Shown: piece by piece, positions 3,443 to 53,110 of the stretch
Layout: every line of letters begins with the position of its first letter
How positions within the stretch are numbered: the stretch's first letter is position 1
Assembly (NCBI RefSeq): GCF_000519085.1
Contig: NZ_KI912577.1
Coordinates: 3,280,035 to 3,344,034 of the forward strand
Reading direction: 5' to 3'
Source of the DNA: Methylobacterium sp. 10
GTDB taxonomy: Bacteria; Pseudomonadota; Alphaproteobacteria; Rhizobiales; Beijerinckiaceae
DNA: 64,000 bases
Made by a program: the position numbers and the translations under genes
Notes under the pieces: generated by a model
Seen by the model: the letters and a program-made list of their open reading frames with translations, nothing else
Told to the model about the DNA's origin: nothing
The model's database searches: none

Positions 3443-3556
3443 CGTCTTTCCGGGCCTGCGGAGCAGAACCCGGAATCCAGAAACAGAGGTCGATGTTCAT
3501 TCTACTCCACCGGCGGTCCTGGATTCCGGGCTCGCCCCTGGCGCCCCGGAAAGACG
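3443..3556. repeat. Long palindromic intergenic repeat
   Basis: Outer arms cgtctttccggg (3443-3454) and cccggaaagacg (3545-3556) are exact inverted complements. Inner arms cccggaatccag (3469-3480) and ctggattccggg (3519-3530) are also exact complements. The unit can therefore extrude as a cruciform or form a long RNA hairpin. It fills most of the gap between the ClC gene and the photolyase gene and contains no gene. It differs in sequence from the repeats at 698-811 and 29481-29642. Confidence 0.75.
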
Positions 3557-3672
3557 GGAAGGATCACGAGAACGTACGGCGCATGTGCCGGCACGACATG
3601 AAGGCCCGACGACACTCACCGAGCAAGGACACTTGCCAAACAAGGCCCGTGACGCAAGGCGCGTACCGCCCC

Positions 3673-40826: not shown

Positions 40827-41117
40827 GTGCAGGGAGAACGATCTGAGCGTGAGTTCAAGATCGAGGCGGTCCGACTGGCTCGTGAGCGTGGGGTGAGCAC
40901 CGCGCAGGCGGCGCGGGATCTCGACGTTCACGAGACGGTGTCGAGCCGCTGGGTCGAGCAGGCTGCTGCTGATCCGCAGCACGCCTTTCCCGGCCAAGGG
41001 CAGATGAAGCCCGAGCAAGTCGAGATCGATCGGCTGCGCAAGGAGGTCGCCCGTCTGAAGGCGGAGCGTGACATCCTAAAAAAGGCCGCCGCATATTTTG
41101 CGAGGGATGCGATATGA
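40827..41117 (+). CDS. IS3-family transposase OrfA
   Basis: A 96-residue DNA-binding protein with an HTH_Tnp_1 motif: REFKIEAVRLARERGVSTAQAARDLDVHETVSSRWV. A leucine-zipper-like coiled coil follows (QVEIDRLRKEVARLKAERDILKKA). The start is a GTG at 40827. It ends in the A-rich region (cctaaaaaaggcc at 41077-41089) where IS3 elements usually shift by -1 to make the OrfAB transposase. It overlaps orfB by four bases. Confidence 0.9.
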   Translation: MQGERSEREFKIEAVRLARERGVSTAQAARDLDVHETVSSRWVEQAAADPQHAFPGQGQMKPEQVEIDRLRKEVARLKAERDILKKAAAYFARDAI

Positions 41118-41965
41118 AGTTCGCTTTCATCGCAAAACATCGCGCCCCGTCTGGCCGGTGGTATGGATGTGCTCGGCGTTGGGTGTCTCGCGCTCCGGTT
41201 TCCACGCGTGGCTCAGCCTGCGCACCCGCGAGGAGTGAGTCGATCCTGGCCCAGGTGCGCACGAGCTTCGTGGATAGCGGCCGCACCTACGGTGCGCGGC
41301 GTGTCTGGCACGACGTGCTGGCCGAGGGCGTAGCGTGCGGCCTGCTCCGGATCGAGCGGATCATGCGCGAGAACGCCCTGCGCGCACGACCACGCCGACG
41401 TGGGCTGCCAAAGGACGACGGTGAGCGGGCCGTCGCCTCGCCCAATCTTCTGGAACTGTGCTTCGCGGCGGAGGCTCCAAACCGGAAATGGATCGCGGAC
41501 TTCACCTATATCGGGACCGCCGAGGGCTGGCTCTACGTGGCAGCCGTCATCCACCTGTTCTCACGCCGTGTCATTGGCTGGTCGATGCAAGCGAGCATGA
41601 CCACTCAGCTTGTTGCGGACGCCCTGATCATGGCCATCTGGCGCAGAGGAAAGCCGGATGCTTTGCTGCATCACTCGGATCAGGGTTCGCAATACACGCG
41701 TGAAGCCTTCCAGCGACTGATGACAGAGAACGGCGTGACTTGTTCGATGAGCCGATCGGGCAACGTGTGGGATACCGCGGCGATGGAGAGCTTCTTCTCG
41801 TCGTTGAAGACCGAGCGCACGGCACGACGGACCTACCGCACGCGAGACGAGACGCGGTCGGACGTATTCGACGACATCGAGCGCTTCTACAACACGGCAC
41901 GACGGCATTCGACCCTGGGCTACGTCAGCCCGGTCGACTTCGAAAACCAAGCCCAGTTAGCTTAG
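41114..41965 (+). CDS. IS3-family transposase OrfB with an internally scrambled N-terminus
   Basis: A 283-residue DDE integrase (rve domain). The catalytic Asp is in WIADFTYIGT, the second Asp in HHSDQGSQYT and the Glu in NVWDTAAMESFFSSLKTE; all are intact. Residues about 11-38 are unlike the family, whereas the +2 frame of the same stretch reads RPVWPVVWMCSALGVSRSGF, the expected HTH_21 linker. Two compensating indels, near 41144 and between 41205 and 41235, explain this. The frame stays open but the N-terminal region is probably damaged, so transposition in this copy is doubtful. Confidence 0.85.
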   Translation: MKFAFIAKHRAPSGRWYGCARRWVSRAPVSTRGSACAPARSESILAQVRTSFVDSGRTYGARRVWHDVLAEGVACGLLRIERIMRENALRARPRRRGLPKDDGERAVASPNLLELCFAAEAPNRKWIADFTYIGTAEGWLYVAAVIHLFSRRVIGWSMQASMTTQLVADALIMAIWRRGKPDALLHHSDQGSQYTREAFQRLMTENGVTCSMSRSGNVWDTAAMESFFSSLKTERTARRTYRTRDETRSDVFDDIERFYNTARRHSTLGYVSPVDFENQAQLA

Positions 41966-42254: not shown

Positions 42255-43691
42255 ATGCCGAACCCTTTCGAATCCAGCCTGCGTGCCGCCGCCGAGGGCC
42301 TCGTCGCGCTGGTGGCGGCCTGCAACCGGCTACGCCTGCCGCGGACGCCACACCCCTTCGTGGTCGGCGTGCACGCGCCGATGCGCGAGGAGCTGACCCT
42401 GTGGGACCTGCCCGCGACCGGGACGATCCCGGCGGAGCTCGACGGGCGCTACCTCAAGATGGGTGCCAACCCCGCTGGTGCGACGACGCGTGGCCACGAC
42501 TGGTTCTTGGGCGACGGCATGGTGCACGGCCTCTGCATCGAGGGCGGCAAGGCCTTGTGGTACCGCAACCGCTGGATCGGCTCGCGGGCGGCCTCCGCAG
42601 CGCTCGGCCAACCCGCCGCCCCTGGGCCCCGCCGCGGCGACGACACTGTCAACACCAACGTCGTCGAGATCGGCGGCCGCCCCTTCGCCGTGGTCGAGGC
42701 CGGCAGCTACCCAGTCGCACTGTCCGAGGATTTGGAGACGCAGCGCTACGATCCGTTCGACGGCACGCTCGCCGGCTCCTTCAGCGGGCACCCGCACCGC
42801 GACCCGGAGACCGGGGAGACACATGCCATCGCCTATGACGGCCGCGTCTGGGACAGCGTGCGCCACGTTGTCGTCTCGACCGCGGGCCGGGTCGTGCGCG
42901 ACGTGCCGATCCCGGTCGAGCACGGTCCCTGCATCCACGACTGCGCGATCACGGCGCGTTTCGTGGTTGTGCTGGACCTGCCCGTCACCTTCTCGATGAG
43001 GGCAGTGCTGGCCGGCCACCGTTTCCCGTTCCGTTGGAACCCCGCCCACCGCGCGCGCGTCGGCCTGCTCCCCCGGCACGGCACGGCCGCGGACATCGCG
43101 TGGTGTGCGGTCGAGCCGTGCTTCGTCTTCCACGTGGCCAATGCCTACGACGACGCGGACGGGCGGGTGGTCCTCGACGTCGTCGCCTACGAGAGGGTGT
43201 TCGCCTCGGCCGGTGGCGGCCTCGATACGCCGGGCCGGCTGGAGCGCTGGACCGCCGACCCCGCGACGGGGCGGGTCGACCGGCGCGTGATCGACCCCGC
43301 GGCCCAGGAGTTCCCCCGGATCGACGAGCGCCGTTTCGGGCGGCCCCACCGCTACGTCTACACGGGCTCAGTCCCCGCTGACGGCAACACGCAGCTCGCC
43401 GGCGCGACGCAGATCTACAAGCACGACTTGGCGACAGGCGGGCGACGCGTGCACGAATTCGGCGCCGACCGCGTCCCGGGGGAATTCGTGTTCGTACCGA
43501 CGGGGCCGGAGGCCGGCGAGGACGAGGGGTGGCTCGTCGGGCTCGTCATCGACACGGCGAGCGACACGACGGACTTCACCGTCCTCGACGCGCGCGCGTT
43601 CGAGGCGCCGCCCGTCGCCACGGTCCGTCTCGGGCACCGGATCCCGCCGGGCTTCCACGGAAACTGGTTTCCGAATCATGGGGCCGAATGA
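42255..43691 (+). CDS. Carotenoid oxygenase family protein
   Basis: A 478-residue non-heme iron dioxygenase (RPE65/lignostilbene dioxygenase family). The four iron-binding His are seen in order in SGHPHRD, PCIHDCAIT, FVFHVANAYDD and the C-terminal GFHGNWFP. It also has GRYLKMGANPAGATTRGHDWFLGDGMVHGL, the conserved opening of blade one. The family cleaves double bonds in carotenoids, apocarotenoids or stilbenes. There are no carotenoid genes around it; neighbours are an IS on the left and selO on the right, which suggests acquisition by transfer. GC content is notably high. Confidence 0.93.
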   Translation: MPNPFESSLRAAAEGLVALVAACNRLRLPRTPHPFVVGVHAPMREELTLWDLPATGTIPAELDGRYLKMGANPAGATTRGHDWFLGDGMVHGLCIEGGKALWYRNRWIGSRAASAALGQPAAPGPRRGDDTVNTNVVEIGGRPFAVVEAGSYPVALSEDLETQRYDPFDGTLAGSFSGHPHRDPETGETHAIAYDGRVWDSVRHVVVSTAGRVVRDVPIPVEHGPCIHDCAITARFVVVLDLPVTFSMRAVLAGHRFPFRWNPAHRARVGLLPRHGTAADIAWCAVEPCFVFHVANAYDDADGRVVLDVVAYERVFASAGGGLDTPGRLERWTADPATGRVDRRVIDPAAQEFPRIDERRFGRPHRYVYTGSVPADGNTQLAGATQIYKHDLATGGRRVHEFGADRVPGEFVFVPTGPEAGEDEGWLVGLVIDTASDTTDFTVLDARAFEAPPVATVRLGHRIPPGFHGNWFPNHGAE

Positions 43692-43725: not shown

Positions 43726-45201
43726 TCACGTGCCGCAGAACGTGCGGTAGTCCGCCCCGCCGCCCTCAGGCGCCTCGGCGTAGCGGGCATGGGCGGGCTG
43801 GTCGTCGTAGGGCCGCGACAGCACCGCCAACAGCTCGTCGAACGGGCCGAAGTCGCCTTGCTCGACCGCCGCCGCGATCATCGCCTCGACATGGTGGTTG
43901 CGCGGGATGAAGGCCGGGTTGACCGCGCGCATCGCTGACGCCGTCGCCGCGGGGTTCCGTCCCTCTTCATCCAACAGCTTCCGCCAGCGTACGTCCCAGG
44001 CGTCGTACTCGGTCGGGTCGATGAACAGGTCGCGCACCCCGACGTCCGCCTCCGGCCGCTCGGCCGCAACGCAAAGGCGGCGGAAGGTCAGGGTAAAATC
44101 CGCCCGGTTCTCCGCCATCCGCGCCAGCAAGTCGTCCGCGAGCGCGACGGCTCCGTCCCGATCCGCGGCCAGCCCGAGCTTGTGCGCAAGGCCATCGTGA
44201 TACGCTTTCTCGAAGCGCGGGCCGAACCCGGCGAGCGCCGCCTCGGCCGCTTCGACCGCCGCCGCCTCGTCCTCGGCCAGCAGCGGCAGCAAGGTCTCGG
44301 CGAGACGGGTGAGGTTCCAAAGGGCGATCCCGGGCTGCTGGCCGTAGGCGTAGCGCCCGTGCGCATCGATCGAGCTGAAGCTCGTGCGCGGGTCGTAGGC
44401 GTCGAGGAAGGCGCAGGGACCGTAGTCGATCGTCTCGCCGGCCACCGACATGTTGTCGGTGTTCATCACCCCGTGGACGAAGCCGACCAGCAGCCAGGCC
44501 GCCACGAGGTCGGCTTGGCGGGCGACGACGCCGTCGAGCAGCGCCCGGTAGGGATGTTCCGCGGAGGATGCCGCGGGATAGTGCCGGGCGAGGGCGTGAT
44601 CGGCGAGCGCCCGCACTGCTTCGGCATCGCCCCGGGCGGCGAAGTACTGGAAGGTGCCAACCCGGATGTGGCTAGCCGCCACGCGGGCGAGCACCGCCCC
44701 GGGCAGCCGGGTCTCACGCACGACCACCTCGCCCGTGGTAACCGCCGCCAGCGCGCGGGTTGTCGGGATGCCGAGCGCGGCCATGGCCTCACTTACGAGG
44801 TACTCGCGCAGCACCGGCCCGAGCGCCGCCCGGCCGTCGCCGCGGCGGGAGAATGGGGTCGGGCCCGCGCCCTTGAGCTGGATGTCGCGGCGCTGTCCAT
44901 TACGATCGACGACCTCGCCGAGTAGTACAGCGCGTCCGTCACCGAGTTGCGGCACGAAGTTGCCGAACTGGTGCCCGGCGTAAGCCGTCGCGATCGGATC
45001 GGCGCCTTCTGGGACGCTGTTCCCCGCGAGCATCCCCACCCCAGCGGGGCCAGCGAGCCAATCCGGGTCAATTCCGAGGTTCGCCGCTAGCGCGCGGTTC
45101 AAACGGATCAGGCGCGGGCCTGCGACGGGTGTCGGAGCGCGGCGGGCATAGAAGCGGTCCGGCAAGCGGACGTAGCTGTTATCGAACGGGATCGTGGTCA
45201 T
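43726..45201 (-). CDS. selO: Protein adenylyltransferase SelO (YdiU/UPF0061)
   Basis: A 491-residue pseudokinase-fold enzyme that transfers AMP to Ser, Thr or Tyr of other proteins and is linked to oxidative stress. It opens FDNSYVRLPDRFYAR, has AYAGHQFGNFVPQLGDGRAVLLGE, then QLKGAGPTPFSRRGDGRAALGPVLREYLVSEAM, and the active-site HGVMNTDNMSVAGETIDYGPCAFLD. All are hallmarks of SelO, and the length is normal. It converges on the carotenoid oxygenase gene with 34 bases between stops. High GC like its neighbour. Confidence 0.94.
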   Translation of the reverse strand: MTTIPFDNSYVRLPDRFYARRAPTPVAGPRLIRLNRALAANLGIDPDWLAGPAGVGMLAGNSVPEGADPIATAYAGHQFGNFVPQLGDGRAVLLGEVVDRNGQRRDIQLKGAGPTPFSRRGDGRAALGPVLREYLVSEAMAALGIPTTRALAAVTTGEVVVRETRLPGAVLARVAASHIRVGTFQYFAARGDAEAVRALADHALARHYPAASSAEHPYRALLDGVVARQADLVAAWLLVGFVHGVMNTDNMSVAGETIDYGPCAFLDAYDPRTSFSSIDAHGRYAYGQQPGIALWNLTRLAETLLPLLAEDEAAAVEAAEAALAGFGPRFEKAYHDGLAHKLGLAADRDGAVALADDLLARMAENRADFTLTFRRLCVAAERPEADVGVRDLFIDPTEYDAWDVRWRKLLDEEGRNPAATASAMRAVNPAFIPRNHHVEAMIAAAVEQGDFGPFDELLAVLSRPYDDQPAHARYAEAPEGGGADYRTFCGT

Positions 45202-46075: not shown

Positions 46076-47665
46076 GTGACCGATGGACGTGCAGGCAAGG
46101 TTGAATCGAGCACGCACTGGCGGACGCAGGAGATGTTCCTCCTTCAGGAGGTCATGAACCTGATCGGTAAAGGCATTCGCCTCGATCAGGTGGCCCGCGA
46201 GATGCTGCATCTGCTTTCCGAGATCGTCGGGCTCAACCGCGGACGCATCGTCCTGCAAGACCCAAACGGGGACGGCTATCGTATCGCGCACTCCTATGGC
46301 CTGACCCGCAAAGAGGTTGACCGAGGCAGATACACACTGGGCGAAGGCATTACCGGGCGCGTCATCCAGGATGGCCATCTCATCATCGTCCAGGACATCG
46401 ACAAGGACCCGACCTTCCTCGGGCGGGCCGTCCAACGCACCACGCTTCCGCAAGGTGTCGTCTCGTTCCTGGCGCTTCCTATCCGGGTCGAGCAAAGAAC
46501 GGTTGGTGCCATCGCCTGCCACCGAATCCGCCACCGTGAGAGGGCGCTCTCCGACGATCTCACCATCCTGCGCATCATCGCCACGTTGATCGGTCAGCTG
46601 CTGACCTTGAACGAGCGCGTCGAGGAGAAGACGCGCGCGCTCGAGGAACATAACGACATGCTTGCGCGTGAGCTTCGCATCAAGCGGGCTCGCTACGGCA
46701 TCATCGGCACGTCGCCATCACTCCTGCGTGCCCTCGCTCAGGTCGAGAAGGTCGCGAACGCAACGGCGAGCGTCCTGCTGCTCGGCGATTCGGGAACCGG
46801 CAAGGAACTGTTCGCCCGGGCGCTCCATCTCGCCAGCCCGCGGCGGGGCAAGCCCTTCATTAAGGTCAATTGTGCGGCCATTCCCGAAACCCTCTTCGAA
46901 TCCGAGCTGTTCGGCCATGAGCGTGGCGCGTTCACCGGCGCGGTCGACGCACGCGCGGGTTGGTTCGAGCAGGCGAGCGGCGGCACCATCTTTCTCGATG
47001 AGATCGGCGAGATGCCGGCGATCCTTCAGACCAAGCTGTTGCGAACCCTTCAGGAGGGCACCGTCGTGCGCCTCGGGGGCAAGCGCGAGATCCGGGTCGA
47101 CATGCGCCTCGTGGCCGCGACGAACCGGGATCTCGCGGGAGACGTCGCACAGGGTCGCTTCCGCGAAGACTTGTTCTACCGCCTCAACGTCATCCCGATC
47201 ACACTGCCGCCGCTCGCGGAGCGACGGGGCGATATTCCCGATCTCGTGCTGCATTTCCTGACGCGAGCGAACCAGGATAACCAGCGGAACGTCAACCTGA
47301 CACAGGCCGCGATCGCGCATCTCGCTCGCCAGCAATGGCCGGGCAACATCCGGCAGCTCGCGAATTTCATCGAGCGAACGGTGCTGCTGTCAAGTGAGGG
47401 CGTCCTCGATGTGGACGACCTGCGGCCGATGCTCGGAGACGCCGCCCGGACGTCGATTGCCTTCCCCGGCTCCATGGAAAGGGACTCCCCGGCAGCACCA
47501 ATGGCGACGATCCGCCCCTATCTGTCGGCCGACTCGCACGGACACGAACAATTGCGCCTCGCGCTCGCCCAGGCCGGAGGGAACAAGACCCGGGCCGCGC
47601 AGAGACTCGGCCTCACCGGGCGCCAGTTCTCCTACCGATGGAGGAAGCTCCAGCCCATGCCCTAA
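46076..47665 (+). CDS. Sigma-54-dependent transcriptional activator, GAF-AAA-HTH (NifA/AnfA-like)
   Basis: A 529-residue enhancer-binding protein. It has a GAF sensory domain (about 25-178, with [15 protein letters not shown]), a coiled linker (180-205), and an AAA+ domain (210-440) with Walker A GDSGTGKE, the sigma-54 contact loop GAFTGA (284-289) and Walker [14 protein letters not shown] Fis-type HTH closes the protein ([23 protein letters not shown]). The GAF resembles NifA/AnfA/VnfA activators. No nitrogenase genes are present. The GTG start at 46076 is tentative; the ATG at 46133 is the first alternative. Its likely target promoter is 47800-47816, just downstream. Confidence 0.92.
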
Positions 47666-47670
47666 GCCCG

Positions 47671-47707
47671 ATCGACAAAGTTCGACAATGTCGACACATT
47701 GTCGACA
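47671..47707. promoter_or_regulatory. Array of four TCGACA sites, candidate activator-binding enhancer
   Basis: Four copies of tcgaca begin at 47672, 47682, 47691 and 47702. The last two sit within the perfect palindrome tgtcgaca (47689-47696 and 47700-47707), whose starts are 11 bases apart, about one helical turn. The array lies right after the activator stop codon and about 95-130 bases upstream of the -24/-12 promoter, the usual distance for an upstream activating sequence. Confidence 0.65.
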
Positions 47708-47799
47708 TTAGCGGGGCGCGAACCCGGACGACTGATCCGAGCCCCCTACTAAGATACTGTCATATAAGGATTTTCGAAAAACTTGAGCGTGCGGTCGCC

Positions 47800-47816
47800 T
47801 TGGCACTGGCCTTGCT
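47800..47816 (+). promoter_or_regulatory. Sigma-54 (-24/-12) promoter
   Basis: The sequence ttggcac-tggcc-ttgct matches the consensus YTGGCAC-N5-TTGCW, with the invariant GG and GC separated by the required 10 bases. It points toward the OsmC gene (ATG 47877), with a transcript start expected near 47828. The neighbouring activator gene and the TCGACA array upstream support it. Confidence 0.85.
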
Positions 47817-47876
47817 CATCTCTCCTCGATCCGGCCCCATAAACGCGTGGGGCACGTGCAGCAAGAGGAGCTACCC

Positions 47877-48428
47877 ATGAGCGCCAGCGCCGCCCCGACA
47901 ACCCTCAAGACCTACCTGCGTCCGATCGATCGCGACGGCCTCGCCAAGTTCGCCGAAAAGGGCCGCGCCAATCCCGGTTCACGCGGGACCAACAAGGTGC
48001 ACACCGTCGTCGACGGCCAGTATCGAACCCTCAGCTATGTCGGCAATCACCAGCCGGTCGTCGTCGACGAGCCGTTGCACCTGTTCGGTGAGGATACCGC
48101 CCCGGCACCCGGCGAGATCGTGCTGTCGGCCCTCGGCGGCTGTCTTGCCGTCGGCATCACCGCCGTGGCGACGTGGAGGCAGGTGCGCCTGTCGCGCCTC
48201 GAACTCCACATCGAGGGCGACATCGGAAACCCGGCCGCCTGGGGCGCGGGCGGTGCCGAGAAGAAGCCGGAGGAGATGGGGTTCCAGGCGATCCGCGTCG
48301 CAGTGACCATCGAAGGCGACGCAACACGCGAGGAACTCGACGAGATCGTGCGCCACGCGAACGTCTATTCGCCGGTCGCCAACTCCATGCGCAACCCGAT
48401 CCCCTTCGACATCGGCTTGGCCGACTGA
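47877..48428 (+). CDS. OsmC-family protein with a single cysteine
   Basis: A 183-residue OsmC-like protein, first gene after the sigma-54 promoter. The first redox cysteine is in LSALGGCLAVGITAVAT. The second cysteine, normally in a CPV/CPI block, is replaced: the sequence reads HANVYSPVANSMRNPI. With only one cysteine it probably cannot run the usual two-cysteine peroxidase cycle and may act on another electrophile or carry a persulfide; that is inference. The ATG at 47877 follows aagaggagct, a good ribosome-binding site. It is followed after 59 bases by the flavoprotein gene. Confidence 0.88.
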   Translation: MSASAAPTTLKTYLRPIDRDGLAKFAEKGRANPGSRGTNKVHTVVDGQYRTLSYVGNHQPVVVDEPLHLFGEDTAPAPGEIVLSALGGCLAVGITAVATWRQVRLSRLELHIEGDIGNPAAWGAGGAEKKPEEMGFQAIRVAVTIEGDATREELDEIVRHANVYSPVANSMRNPIPFDIGLAD

Positions 48429-48487: not shown

Positions 48488-49684
48488 ATGTCGAGCGCCC
48501 CCGCTCTTCGGCTGGCCGATGCCCCCATCGCGGTGGCGCCACGCTTCACGCGCTCCGCTTCCGATTGGACGGATGAGACCGTCCTCGTCGGAACGACGGC
48601 CATTGCGGAAGGTCCCTTGAGCGCGGCAGCGGCCAAGATCGACCATGGAGCCTACCCGCTCGACATCATGGCCGGGCTCGGTGGCGCGGGCGCTCTCGGC
48701 GTCCACCTCGACCGGCACGGCACCCGCATCGGCCTCTCCATCGCCGCCATGCAGGCGGCGAGCCGTGCCTGCGGTGCCACCGGCTTCCTGATGTGGTGCC
48801 AGAACGTCTGCGGCCTCTACGTGGAACAGTCAGGCAATCCCGCCCTGACGGGGACCATTCTCGACGACCATGCCGCGGGTCGCACCTTTGGCGGCACGGC
48901 CCTCTCCAACCCGATGAAGGCCTTTGCCGGAATCGAACCGATCCTGCTGCGCGCACGGCGCGTGCCCGGCGGTTACTGGGTCAACGGCATGCTGCCATGG
49001 GTCAGCCACATCGGACCGGGGCAGTATTGCGGCGCCATCGCGGGTGTCGTCGGCGCCGGCGACACGATCAGCCACGAGATCATGTTCCTGCTGCGCTGCG
49101 ACCGCGCTGAGCTGCGGCCCTGTCCGCAATTCTCCGGCATGGAGGGCACCAGCACCTGGGGCTTGCGCCTGGACGAGTACTTCGTCAGCCAGGACGAGTT
49201 GATCGCCGATCCCGCCCGCCCCTTCATCGGCCGCATCCGAGCCGCCTTCATCCTACTTCAATGTGGCATGGGCCTCGGCGTCGCGGAGGGAAGCCTCGAT
49301 TCCATGATCGCGGTCGAGGAGCCCCTCGGACACGTCAACCAGTTCCTCGACGACCGCCCCGGACAGATTGCGGCCGAACTCGCCGAACTCCGCACCCGAA
49401 TCCTCGGGCTCGCCGAATCCCCCTATGACGGCTCGAACGACTACCTGATCGACGTGCTCGACGCCCGCGCGCAGACCTCCGAGCTCGCTCTCCGCGCCTC
49501 GCAATCCGCCCTGCTCCACCAGGGCGCACGCGGCTACCTGATGTCGGCCGCGCCCCAACGGCGTATCCGAGAAGCGCATTTCGTCGCCATCGTCACGCCC
49601 GCCATCAAGCATCTGCGCTGGGAGATGGCGCGCCTGTCGCGGGAGATCCTTCCGGCCGATACCCGCGAGGGAGGCCGGGCATGA
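48488..49684 (+). CDS. Acyl-CoA-dehydrogenase-like flavoprotein
   Basis: A 398-residue protein of the acyl-CoA dehydrogenase superfamily. The middle domain has FGGTALSNPMKAFAGIEPILLRARRVPGGYWVNGMLPWVSH instead of the usual ALTEPxAGSD substrate motif. The C-terminal helical domain includes ASQSALLHQGARGYL. This pattern fits the branch of ACAD-like flavoenzymes that act as oxygenases or on non-CoA substrates (compare SfnC/DszC-type proteins) rather than beta-oxidation enzymes. The gene overlaps the rubredoxin reductase by four bases, so the two products probably work together. Substrate unknown. Confidence 0.8.
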   Translation: MSSAPALRLADAPIAVAPRFTRSASDWTDETVLVGTTAIAEGPLSAAAAKIDHGAYPLDIMAGLGGAGALGVHLDRHGTRIGLSIAAMQAASRACGATGFLMWCQNVCGLYVEQSGNPALTGTILDDHAAGRTFGGTALSNPMKAFAGIEPILLRARRVPGGYWVNGMLPWVSHIGPGQYCGAIAGVVGAGDTISHEIMFLLRCDRAELRPCPQFSGMEGTSTWGLRLDEYFVSQDELIADPARPFIGRIRAAFILLQCGMGLGVAEGSLDSMIAVEEPLGHVNQFLDDRPGQIAAELAELRTRILGLAESPYDGSNDYLIDVLDARAQTSELALRASQSALLHQGARGYLMSAAPQRRIREAHFVAIVTPAIKHLRWEMARLSREILPADTREGGRA

Positions 49685-51015
49685 CCGCTCTCGCGCCGAC
49701 CGACGGGCTCGGCCCCTGGAGACAGTTCCTCTGCCGGGCCTGCGGCCTGATCTACGACGAGGGCGAAGGCGATCCCGACAGTGGGCTGGCTCCCGGCACC
49801 CGCTTCGAGGACATCGCGGAGGATTGGGCCTGCCCGATCTGCGGCGTCACCAAATCGGATTTCGAGCCCTATCAACGGCGGGCATCCGTCGCGCCCGCGC
49901 CCGTTCCCCTCGTCCGGCAGCGTCGGCCGGGCGTGGTGATCGTCGGGGCCGGCGTGGCGGGCTGGAGCGTCGCCGCGGCGATCCGCGCCGAGGATGCGCA
50001 GGTTCCGATCACCCTGGTGACAGCCTGCAGCGGCGACGTCTACCACAAGCCGGAACTCTCGGTTGCGCTCGGACGCGGCATGTCACCGGACACCCTGCGC
50101 CGGGAGAGCGGCGCGACCGCGGCGGCCCGCCTCGGCCTGCATCTGATGCCCGACACGGTGGCGGTGGGCCTCTCGCCGGATCGGCATCGGCTGCGTACGA
50201 CCCGTGGCACCCTGACCTACACGCAGCTCGTTCTCGCCCACGGCGCCAGAGCGGCGTTGCCGGCATGCCTCGATCCCACACTGTGCTGGCGCGTCAACGA
50301 CCTCGCGGCATGGTCCGCCCTGCATGCCGAACTCGGGCGCGGCCCACGCACCGTGGCGGTAATCGGCGCCGGCATGGTCGGCTGCGAGCTTGCCGAGGAT
50401 CTCACACGTGCCGGTCATGGCGTCACGCTCATCGGCACCGGAAGGCTTCCGCTGCCCGAACTCCTGCCCGCGATGGCCGGTCTTCGCCTCCTGGCGGGCC
50501 TGGAGCGCCTGGGCGTACGCTACCGTGCCAGCACCCTGGTAACTGGCCTGAGCCGCAGGCCGGACGGCCATGTCACACTCGCCCTCTCGGACGGCGGGGT
50601 CCTGGACGCCGCCACCGTGGTCGCGGCGACGGGCCTCGCCACGCCCTCGCGGCTCGTCCGTGGAGCCGGCCTCGCCTTCGAGCGTGGCATCGTCGTCGAT
50701 CCGACGACGATGCGGACGAGCCAACCCGACATCTTCGCGCTCGGCGACTGCATCAGCATCGACGGCCAGCCCTGCCGCTTCATCGAGCCGGTCGCACGGC
50801 AAGCCGAGGCGATCGCGCATGCCATCGTCGGCCGGGCGCATCCGGGCTACGCGCACGCTACGCCCGTCATCCGCCTGAAGACGCGCTCCGCGCCGGTCGA
50901 ACTGCACGGCATTCCGGTTCCGGGCGCCCCCTGGCATGTCGTTGAGGACACGGAACGCCGTCTCGCGATGGAGCAGCGGCACGATGGCGACATCATCGCC
51001 TGGCTCGCAGCCTGA
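49681..51015 (+). CDS. Rubredoxin fused to FAD-dependent rubredoxin reductase
   Basis: A 444-residue electron-transfer protein. Residues 15-65 form a rubredoxin with both iron-binding pairs: CRACGLIYDEGEGDPDSGLAPGTRF and DWACPICGVTKSDF. Residues 80-444 form an FAD/NAD(P)H reductase with the FAD site VVIVGAGVAGWSVAAAI, the NADH site VAVIGAGMVGCELAEDL and the FAD-closing block DIFALGDCISI. Such fusions pass electrons from NAD(P)H to an oxygenase or to peroxide/oxygen reductases. It begins inside the stop of the ACAD-like gene. It is the likely redox partner of that enzyme. Confidence 0.9.
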   Translation: MTALAPTDGLGPWRQFLCRACGLIYDEGEGDPDSGLAPGTRFEDIAEDWACPICGVTKSDFEPYQRRASVAPAPVPLVRQRRPGVVIVGAGVAGWSVAAAIRAEDAQVPITLVTACSGDVYHKPELSVALGRGMSPDTLRRESGATAAARLGLHLMPDTVAVGLSPDRHRLRTTRGTLTYTQLVLAHGARAALPACLDPTLCWRVNDLAAWSALHAELGRGPRTVAVIGAGMVGCELAEDLTRAGHGVTLIGTGRLPLPELLPAMAGLRLLAGLERLGVRYRASTLVTGLSRRPDGHVTLALSDGGVLDAATVVAATGLATPSRLVRGAGLAFERGIVVDPTTMRTSQPDIFALGDCISIDGQPCRFIEPVARQAEAIAHAIVGRAHPGYAHATPVIRLKTRSAPVELHGIPVPGAPWHVVEDTERRLAMEQRHDGDIIAWLAA

Positions 51016-51025
51016 GGAATCGGCG

Positions 51026-51586
51026 ATGACGAGCGCCGTGCCCGCAACCGATCCCGTTCTCTCACAGGAGCACGAACAGGTGGCGGCGACCCTCTCGGGC
51101 ACCGTTCCCCGACCTGTCGTGCAAGGCTTCTTCGACGAGCCAACGAACACGGCGATGCTCGCGGCGGCGGGCCTGATGTTCAAGCGGCGTTTCGTACCGG
51201 CCGCCGCGCGGATGGAGGTCACTCGGGAGAGTGTGCCCAAACTCGTCGGCTACGGGAGCGCCACGGGTCTGCTGTCGGGCTTCCTCGGCATCGGCGGCGG
51301 CTTCCTCATCGTTCCCGGGCTCGTCGCTGCCACCGGAATGCCGCTGGTGAGTGCCGTCGGCTGTTCCCTCGTGGTCATCACGGCCTTCGGAGTGACGACC
51401 GGGCTGAGCTACGCGCTGTCCCACCTCGTGGATTGGGCCCTCGTCCTGGCTTTCGTGGCCGGGGGAGCGGGAGGCGGCATCATCGGCCTTCGTCTTCGCT
51501 CCGCCTGTGTCGCCCGCAAGGGCGCGCTGGACACGGTGCTGGCCGCCATCATCGGAGGCGCGGGGCTGGTGATGCTGATGCGGTAG
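51026..51586 (+). CDS. Chimeric, truncated TauE/SafE-type exporter with a Blh-like N-terminus
   Basis: A 186-residue product. Residues 20-40 (VPRPVVQGFFDEPTNTA) look like the start of a Blh/persulfide-dioxygenase-type MBL-fold hydrolase. From about residue 41 the sequence becomes the C-terminal half of a TauE/SafE sulfite/anion exporter, with GSATGLLSGFLGIGGGFLIVPGL and about four hydrophobic segments. Full TauE proteins have about 250 residues and eight spans. The simplest explanation is an in-frame deletion joining two neighbouring genes of a bigR/blh/tauE-like locus. It is 10 bases downstream of the reductase gene. Transport activity is doubtful. Confidence 0.75.
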   Translation: MTSAVPATDPVLSQEHEQVAATLSGTVPRPVVQGFFDEPTNTAMLAAAGLMFKRRFVPAAARMEVTRESVPKLVGYGSATGLLSGFLGIGGGFLIVPGLVAATGMPLVSAVGCSLVVITAFGVTTGLSYALSHLVDWALVLAFVAGGAGGGIIGLRLRSACVARKGALDTVLAAIIGGAGLVMLMR

Positions 51587-51748: not shown

Positions 51749-53110
51749 ATGGCCCTGTTCGACAAGTATTACGGCTCACGACCTCGCCTGAACCGCCGTG
51801 GCTGCAGCTGCGGGGTGCATATGAGCCAGGTCGAGCACGAGGCGGCGCTCCCGACGGGCGACGCCGCTGTCCAGCGGATCGTCGAGGCGTCGATGATGCG
51901 TGCCGTATTCCCACGGGAAGCCGAGCGCCGCGCTTTCCTCCGGAGCGTCGGCGCAGCAACCGCCGCGGCGGCGATCAGCCAGTTCCTGCCGACGCGGTTC
52001 GTGGCCGAGGCCTTCGCGGAGGCCGGTAAGCCGGAGAAGACCGATCTCAAGGTCGGTTTCATTCCGATCACCTGCGCCACGCCGATCATCATGGCGAAAC
52101 CCATGGGCTTCTACGAGAAGCAGGGCTTGAACGTGGAGGTCGTGAAGACCGCTGGCTGGGCGGTGATCCGCGACAAGACCCTGAACAAGGAATACGACGC
52201 TGCCCACATGCTGGCGCCGATGCCCATCGCGATGAGTTTGGGGCTAGGCTCGGCCCCGGTGCCCTTCGCGGTGCCGGCCATCGAGAACGTCAACGGCCAG
52301 GCGATCTGCCTGGCGATGAAGCACAGGGACAACCGCGACCCGAAGAACTGGAAAGGCATGAAGTTCGCCATTCCATTCGACTACTCGAACCACAATTACC
52401 TGCTGCGCTACTATCTGGCCGAGCACGGCATCGATCCCGACGTGGATGTGCAGCTGCGTTCGGTACCGCCGCCCGACATGGTCGCCAACCTGCGCGCCGA
52501 CAATATTGACGGGTTCCTGGCACCCGACAACGTGGTCCAGCGCGCGGTCTATGACGGCGTCGGCTTCATCCATATCCTGTCGAAGGAGATCTGGGACGGG
52601 CATCCCTGCTGCGCCTTTTCGATCGCGCAGGATACGATCCAGCAGATGCCGAACACGACGGCGGCGTTGCTGCGGGCCATCATGGAAGCGACGGCGCACG
52701 CCTCCAAGCCCGAGAACCGCAAGGACATCGCCGCCGCCATCGCTCCGGCGAATTACCTGAACCAGCCCCAGACCGTCATCGAGCAGGTCCTCACCGGTAC
52801 CTACGCGGATGGGCTCGGCGGCGTGAAGAAGGATCCGAAGCGCGTCGCCTTCGATCCCTTCCCGTACGAGAGCTTCGCGGTCTGGACGCTGACCCAGATG
52901 CAGCGCTGGGGTCAGATCAAGGGCGACGTCAACTACGCGGCCATCGCGAAGCAGGTCTACCTGGCCACCGACGCCATGCGCCTGATGCGGGAGGCTGGCC
53001 TCACGCCTCCGGAGGGCACCACGAAGACATTCGTGGTCATGGGCAAGACCTTTGACCCGGCCAAGCCCAAGGAATACCTCGACTCCTTCAAGATCAAGCG
53101 GGCGGGCTGA
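51749..53110 (+). CDS. NrtA/CmpA-type ABC substrate-binding protein, Tat-exported, orphan
   Basis: A 453-residue binding protein of the nitrate/bicarbonate/sulfonate family. Residues 53-80 carry a twin-arginine leader (RRAFLRSVGAATAAAAISQ) inside a longer N-terminal segment with a small CSC motif near residue 20. The mature part has VGFIPITCATPIIMAKPMGFYEKQGLNVEVVKTAGWAVIRD and AAHMLAPMPIAMSLG, typical of NrtA/CmpA. Permease and ATPase genes do not follow; the next genes are unrelated. The ligand could be nitrate, nitrite, a sulfonate or another small anion. Confidence 0.87.
   Translation: MALFDKYYGSRPRLNRRGCSCGVHMSQVEHEAALPTGDAAVQRIVEASMMRAVFPREAERRAFLRSVGAATAAAAISQFLPTRFVAEAFAEAGKPEKTDLKVGFIPITCATPIIMAKPMGFYEKQGLNVEVVKTAGWAVIRDKTLNKEYDAAHMLAPMPIAMSLGLGSAPVPFAVPAIENVNGQAICLAMKHRDNRDPKNWKGMKFAIPFDYSNHNYLLRYYLAEHGIDPDVDVQLRSVPPPDMVANLRADNIDGFLAPDNVVQRAVYDGVGFIHILSKEIWDGHPCCAFSIAQDTIQQMPNTTAALLRAIMEATAHASKPENRKDIAAAIAPANYLNQPQTVIEQVLTGTYADGLGGVKKDPKRVAFDPFPYESFAVWTLTQMQRWGQIKGDVNYAAIAKQVYLATDAMRLMREAGLTPPEGTTKTFVVMGKTFDPAKPKEYLDSFKIKRAG

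Follow-up and report, generated by a model that had tools for sequence, protein, structure and literature searches.

Four phased TCGACA copies in Methylobacterium sp. 10, lying ahead of an operon for an OsmC-family protein, a flavoprotein of the acyl-CoA dehydrogenase fold (ACAD-like) and a rubredoxin reductase, are with high confidence predicted to serve as an enhancer (upstream activating sequence) for the NifA-like GAF-AAA+-HTH activator, whose gene directly precedes them. The array and the activator are gained and lost together in relatives, and the array is therefore very probably the docking site of this activator. The stretch of 64,000 nucleotides analyzed around the array is designated as the window. 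In the proposed mechanism, activator subunits would dock on TGTCGACA-type boxes placed 9–11 bp apart on approximately one face of the helix, in a region from roughly −157 to −120 relative to the expected transcription start. DNA looping would bring the AAA+ ring to the sigma54-RNA polymerase, ATP hydrolysis would open the promoter complex, and the operon would be transcribed. The GAF domain may gate the activation through a ligand, perhaps cyanate, thiocyanate or cyanide. The features of the locus are listed in Table 1.

Table 1. Features of the activator-array-operon locus, in window coordinates.
Feature	Position	Strand	Description
Activator gene	46076–47665	+	GAF, sigma54-interacting AAA+ (GAFTGA, Walker A/B), Fis-type HTH
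Box 1	47670–47677	no strand	GATCGACA, 6/8 letters
Box 2	47680–47687	no strand	GTTCGACA, 6/8 letters, 10 bp past box 1
Box 3	47689–47696	no strand	TGTCGACA, 8/8 letters, 9 bp past box 2
Box 4	47700–47707	no strand	TGTCGACA, 8/8 letters, 11 bp past box 3
−24/−12 sigma54 promoter, TTGGCAC-N5-TTGCT	47800–47816	+	TTGGCACTGGCCTTGCT, 0 mismatches to consensus
OsmC-family protein	47877–48428	+	PF02566; first gene past the promoter; an earlier predicted GTG at 47847
ACAD-fold flavoprotein (ACAD-like)	48488–49684	+	profile matches
Rubredoxin fused to NorW-like FAD/NAD(P)H reductase	49681–51015	+	profile matches
TauE/SafE sulfite-exporter family protein, C-terminal part	51026–51586	+	profile positions 99–237 of 237
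NMT1_2 (CynA/NrtA-like) solute-binding protein	51749–53110	+	apparently an orphan copy

The original prediction had described four TCGACA copies spaced 9–11 bases, and they begin exactly as claimed at 47672, 47682, 47691 and 47702, in steps of 10, 9 and 11 bp, with the first copy starting seven bases past the activator stop codon (47663–47665). The last two copies are, as had been read, perfect palindromes 11 bp apart, and no other copy of TGTCGACA is present in the window. TCGACA occurs 32 times on the plus strand of the window, and among the 36-bp stretches starting from each occurrence, more than two copies are found only in the array. The box at 47689 is the centre of the longest perfect dyad, TCGACAATGT-CGAC-ACATTGTCGA, and 47687–47709 can also be read as a dyad, AATGTCGACA-CAT-TGTCGACATT. 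Sigma54 promoters are of the TGGCA-N6-TTGC type with GG at −24 and GC at −12, and transcription starts about 12 bp past the −12 element. The canonical −24/−12 promoter proposed for this region was recovered without mismatch, its −24 GG being 98 bp from the centre of box 4. The usual −24/−12 geometry would place the transcription start (+1) near 47827. The genome includes rpoN, with a match to TIGR02395 at 415.5 bits, above the cut-off.

The number of TGTCGACA copies is weak evidence by itself, since two were found in the 64-kb window versus 0.81 expected and 19 of 100 shuffles reach two. None of the 20 whole-window shuffles yielded a pair at 9–11 bp matching 14 or more of the 16 letters, and a chain score of 7 was reached in none of the 390 other window tiles. 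The exact TGTCGACA-N3-TGTCGACA pattern is a single copy in the 4.98-Mb genome, and allowing up to three mismatches it has 15 genome sites, versus 6 for a backwards control pattern. A chance origin of the array was rejected on the pairing against shuffles, the phasing and the locus counts.

Relatives of the locus were collected through the ACAD-like gene, which had a match in 25 of 199 family genomes; a further 80 loci were taken from the named collection, the best of 109 confirmed there. After L099 (OsmC not found) and L114 (OsmC on the opposite strand) were dropped from the 80, 79 loci including the window were usable; loci L030–L034, which were analyzed with the window as the first six operons, partly duplicate the 80 (for example, L031 is L065). 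The loci were divided into three classes: those with an orthologous activator (at least 50% identity), those with a diverged activator (43–47%), and those with none found nearby. Among these best 80 of 109, a box chain with a score of at least 8 within 320 bp of OsmC is present in 34 of the 47 orthologous-activator loci, from alpha-, beta- and gammaproteobacteria, and in neither the 15 diverged-activator loci nor the 17 loci without an activator nearby; 16 of the 47 are from Methylobacterium/Methylorubrum, and these counts are thus not independent trials. The exact −24/−12 consensus is found in 42/47, 3/15 and 12/17 loci of the three classes, respectively. The intergenic regions of the first six operons all have a TGGCA-N6-TTG element and one or more perfect copies of TGTCGACA.

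Across the 16 aligned Methylobacterium/Methylorubrum sequences, conservation over 19 bp is highest at 47689–47707, with a mean consensus frequency of 0.91. The promoter follows with 0.89, while the stretches between the array and the promoter show 0.52–0.60 and the sequence after the promoter 0.72. Within the array, the zone of box 1 (47670–47679) is the least conserved (0.68), and that of box 2 (47680–47688) shows 0.81. Conservation upstream of orthologous operons was the proposed check of the original prediction, and the TGTCGACA motif, the 9–11 bp phasing and the −24/−12 element are indeed kept in several proteobacterial groups. This recurrence favors its reading of a complete enhancer-promoter unit, in which the activator would bind the array.

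The 13 orthologous-activator loci below the score are L080, L104 and the following. In L116, L119 and L120, the array and promoter are located farther upstream, ahead of a rhodanese gene (scores 7, 7 and 8); in L124–L126, the 11-bp spacing is kept and the box letters are diverged; and L078, L098, L111, L123 and L127 have weak chains with a score of 5 or 6. The Acetobacter locus L131 encodes a 53%-identical regulator and has no box pair. In a survey of 40 regions, arrays were found in two (L226 and L244), both with the orthologous activator; L244 was picked for its activator and L226 was placed to include it, and the unbiased part of this survey is thus the 38 negatives.

The association was also analyzed across 111 genomes of the genus. 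The OsmC gene is present in 20 of them, and TGTCGACA-N3-TGTCGACA with at most one mismatch in 21. The pattern is found in 18 of the 20 operon genomes versus 3 of the 91 others (Fisher p = 1e-15); the follow-up of extra matches in operon genomes left out contig 10 of G621 and contig 41 of G671. In all 18 genomes with both operon and array, the activator adjoins the array and the far edge of the array lies 179–190 bp ahead of the OsmC match. The three genomes with the pattern and without the operon have no −24/−12-like site 30–220 bp from the box. The other two operon genomes lack the array, and no activator was found in their upstream DNA, of which about 3 kb (G652) and about 6.4 kb (G659, which is locus L064) were covered. 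The enzyme genes are kept in both G659 (L145/L064) and G652 (L154/L280), with neither activator nor array in the upstream DNA covered. L064 retains a canonical −24/−12 element, and another activator may therefore serve it.

These distributions bear on the unlikely alternative that the boxes belong to another regulator, such as a repressor or a global factor, whose sites merely neighbor the activator gene. Perfect 8-bp palindromes suit repressors as well, and L122, of the class without an activator, carries an array with a score of 11 and a promoter (3453–3617) ahead of a rhodanese gene. This is an array without a visible activator and a possible exception to the co-occurrence; its contig begins about 3.4 kb before the array, and the activator could thus be beyond the contig end. 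Against another regulator, boxes and activator are jointly missing in both genus exceptions, and no boxes are found near OsmC in the 17 loci without a visible activator, although 12 of these keep the exact −24/−12 consensus. The phasing of the boxes and their distance from the promoter also suit an enhancer, and a second array, described below, is likewise placed ahead of a sigma54-like promoter.

The phasing was counted in 45 activator loci; for this count the class was cut at 56% identity, by which L123 and L124 fall in class II, one of them being its single match. Box pairs with at least 13 of 16 letters are spaced by 9 bp in 24 loci, 10 bp in 3 and 11 bp in 27, and pairs at 12 or 14–17 bp are absent from all 45. 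Beyond these, spacings of 13 bp (1 locus), 18–21 bp (4–10 loci each), 24 bp (1), 27 bp (2) and 30 bp (4) were observed, along with 32, 33, 37, 38 and 42 bp in single loci. With at least 14 of 16 letters, pairs at 9–11 bp are present in 35/45 loci versus 1/900 dinucleotide shuffles, and off-phase pairs in 0/45 (6–8 bp), 1/45 (13–15 bp) and 5/45 loci (16–18 bp). The gap patterns are 10-9-11 or 9-11 in Methylobacterium, 9-9 in Aquabacter, Azorhizobium and L067, and 11-11 or 11-11-11 in the Hydrogenophaga group; that of Cupriavidus is 11-9-11 only when weak outer boxes, judged by eye, are counted. The centre of the array is a 9-bp pair in several beta-proteobacterial loci and an 11-bp pair in the Hydrogenophaga group. 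Some diverged arrays are long perfect dyads, with arm lengths of 24 bp (L075) and 16 bp (L095, L125). An 8-bp box need not correspond to one dimer site. The natural spacing variants (10-9-11, 9-9, 11-11-11 and others) could be used to test how enhancer-binding proteins read phased sites.

The activator has the Pfam domains GAF, Sigma54_activat, AAA_lid_14 and HTH_8. A sigma54-interacting AAA+ domain with GAFTGA and a Fis-type HTH, both typical of bacterial enhancer-binding proteins, are present. Its GTG start at 46076 is a provisional one from ORF prediction, and 46130–47662 was used for the analyses. The activator is rare, being found in 4 of 398 phylum genomes at an E-value of 1e-125 or better. 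In the Walker A motif (46784–46807), the window protein shows GDSGTGKE, where GESGTGKE is found in the remaining five of the six activators aligned first. The activator of L124, a record titled as an Akkermansia muciniphila metagenome-assembled genome (MAG), is near-identical to that of L123, a Comamonadaceae MAG; the title or the binning of the L124 record is probably wrong.

The upstream site of NifA is TGT-N10-ACA, and the original prediction had proposed that the activator is not NifA and has its own specificity. It is very improbable that the activator is NifA proper, with the array as a variant NifA site. NifA (TIGR01817) is its top NCBIfam model with a nearly full-length match, and the two families share the GAF-AAA+-HTH architecture, RQ..Y in the HTH, a site upstream of a −24/−12 promoter, and TGT...ACA at the box edges. 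The score of 476.2 bits is, however, below the cut-off of 528.85. In a tree of 86 proteins, the activator group (46 rows), the diverged group (12) and NifA (25) each fall to one side of a branch, with SH-aLRT support of 98, 99 and 99, respectively, in a quick, midpoint-rooted analysis in which the long branches (PAS-type, Acetobacter, Klebsiella) are uncertain. The HTH motif is mostly TPRQ[VI].Y in NifA and mostly T.RQF.YR in the activator group. Unlike NifA sites, the arrays consist of three or four phased boxes, in which the 9- and 11-bp pairs give TGT-N11-ACA and TGT-N13-ACA; TGT-N10-ACA is absent from all six activator-OsmC intergenic regions of the window and L030–L034. No match to the nifH model above the cut-off was found in the genome. 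NifA membership was rejected on the score, the side of the tree, the missing N10 form and the missing nifH, and the proposal of a separate specificity is thereby supported. The reading of the array as the enhancer of this activator gives a precise and testable site-to-activator assignment for a group near NifA but distinct from it.

The diverged GAF activators, from Marinobacter, Amphritea and Alcanivorax, accompany the same enzyme genes, mostly with cyanase, and that of L130 has the architecture GAF-AAA+-HTH_8. Their loci lack the TGTCGACA chain, while 14 of the 15 have a −24/−12-like site with at most one mismatch. In the promoter regions of L096, L097, L102, L106 and L108, apparent GACA-W-TGTC cores were seen by eye.

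A structural, recombination or insertion-sequence element without a regulatory role is hardly conceivable and was rejected: IS3-family transposase genes are located upstream of the activator region at 40827–41965, but the exact N3 pair occurs once in the genome of the window, the array keeps its place before OsmC in the genus, and it is found in several proteobacterial groups.

A second array was found upstream of a CynA-type solute-binding-protein gene in 8 of 25 regions (L053–L058, L063 and L105), all from Methylobacterium/Methylorubrum; L056 is from Methylorubrum thiocyanatum DSM 11490. Its gaps are 9-11-9 (9-9-11 in L053), its promoter is of the TTGGCGC-N5-TTGCT type with one mismatch to the scan consensus, and the strongest box is 100–101 bp from the −24 GG. 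The CynA-type regions without the array are those of the window, L050, L052, L059–L062, L138, L065, L116, L118 and L122–L127. L104 has a weak pair (score 6) ahead of cyanase on the opposite strand, and the two operons of both L060 and L062 are separated by another gene resembling that of the activator (49% identity). Based on the similar array before the cyanate-transporter genes in some relatives, the activator seems to be a switch at the regulon level for the use of cyano compounds as nitrogen.

The genome of the window carries a complete cynABDS set at C1:524000–528000 (L138) with a divergent PAS-type sigma54 activator. The array is absent ahead of this operon and ahead of the solute-binding-protein gene of the window, which has no box pair upstream and whose −24/−12 element differs from the consensus at two positions. 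Within the window, this gene is followed by no match to a permease, an ATPase or cyanase. The control of the cyanate transporter may have changed hands between activators, judging from these arrangements. The single solute-binding-protein gene of the window, set beside the complete cynABDS elsewhere, is a possible case of a regulator swap and a remnant.

In many relatives, the activator gene is followed in turn by those for OsmC, the ACAD-like protein, the rubredoxin reductase, the solute-binding protein, the permease, the ATPase and cyanase; in others, the transporter and cyanase genes are convergent, elsewhere or absent. Among the best 80 of 109 loci, many of which end early, cyanase is found in 45 and the permease in 49. 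Among the loci without an activator, mostly from Alcaligenaceae, a cyanase or transporter match is limited to L114 and L122. Eleven of the 80 loci encode a two-domain rhodanese (PF00581), as do six of the 20 loci L030–L049, among which L031 is a duplicate of L065. Rhodanese genes near OsmC-ACAD were seen in L226 (12870–13820), L116, L119, L120, L122, L101, L102, L106, L107, L110, L121 and L065, and also in L035, L036, L038, L040 and L041. In L226, as in L116, L119, L120 and L122, the array and promoter are upstream of the rhodanese gene, and in the Hydrogenophaga-type loci rhodanese is the first gene past the array.

The OsmC protein has one invariant cysteine, Cys89, among nine aligned sequences. 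Acyl-CoA dehydrogenases have their catalytic Glu in a C-terminal IYEGT motif. In the ACAD-like protein, the position of the Glu in YEGT is taken by Thr370 in the two alignments that clearly reach it, and this threonine is invariant among six sequences; the protein is probably not a dehydrogenase, judging by this residue. Its top NCBIfam match is 3-sulfinopropanoyl-CoA desulfinase, a very weak one with 18.4 bits against a cut-off of 600. The AlphaFold model of the protein, built from six sequences, is poor (mean pLDDT 51.3).

The order of OsmC, ACAD-like, rubredoxin reductase, cyanate transporter and cyanase genes, sometimes with rhodanese, together with the residue data and the TauE piece, suggests nitrogen scavenging from thiocyanate to cyanate. 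The cluster seems to be a route, so far undescribed, by which cyanate, perhaps thiocyanate, is used as a nitrogen source. It is tentatively proposed that an uncharacterized NifA-like subfamily reads phased TGTCGACA boxes (9/10/11 bp) and thereby activates an aerobic pathway not yet described. In this pathway, thiocyanate (or cyanide by way of thiocyanate) would be turned into cyanate and sulfite or sulfane sulfur by the single-Cys OsmC, an ACAD-fold flavin monooxygenase fed by the rubredoxin reductase and, in some species, rhodanese, with cyanate passing to cyanase. There is a considerable possibility that the operon serves instead cyanate alone, or the scavenging of organosulfur compounds in an SfnB/sulfone-like manner. 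Cyanase and CynABD are the sole parts with a known role, which is in line with cyanate, and the desulfinase match is in line with organosulfur compounds; on the other hand, the rhodanese beside OsmC-ACAD in some loci and the TauE piece in the window point to a sulfur-bearing substrate, and redox enzymes would be needless for cyanate alone. If the thiocyanate pathway is true, it would add a third route for thiocyanate to those of thiocyanate dehydrogenase and thiocyanate hydrolase.

In the available portions of the open-licence full-text literature, no description of the OsmC/ACAD-like/rubredoxin-reductase operon or of the TGTCGACA array was found. As far as the consulted part of the source describes, a cyanase gene is located near that for thiocyanate hydrolase in one species (PMC5328954). 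Cyanate is a possible common product with the thiocyanate dehydrogenase and hydrolase pathways covered there (the "cyanate pathway"), whereas the enzymes here are the set of OsmC, flavoprotein and rubredoxin reductase. CynF of Pseudomonas pseudoalcaligenes CECT5344 is a sigma54-dependent activator of the Fis family for cynABDS, which encodes a cyanate ABC transporter and cyanase, has a putative sigma54 promoter and has a role in nitrogen-source use, according to the accessible part of its description (PMC6627978). The class of activator, the cyanate transporter with cyanase and the nitrogen role are shared with the present system, while the same part of that description includes neither OsmC, ACAD or rubredoxin genes nor a CynF binding site (PMC6627978). 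CynF was compared by this description rather than by sequence, and the cynABDS activator in the genome of the window is of the PAS type, not the GAF type.

Two further genes are located between the insertion sequence and the activator in the window: 42255–43691 on the plus strand encodes a protein of the carotenoid-oxygenase family (RPE65), and 43726–45201 on the minus strand encodes the protein adenylyltransferase SelO.
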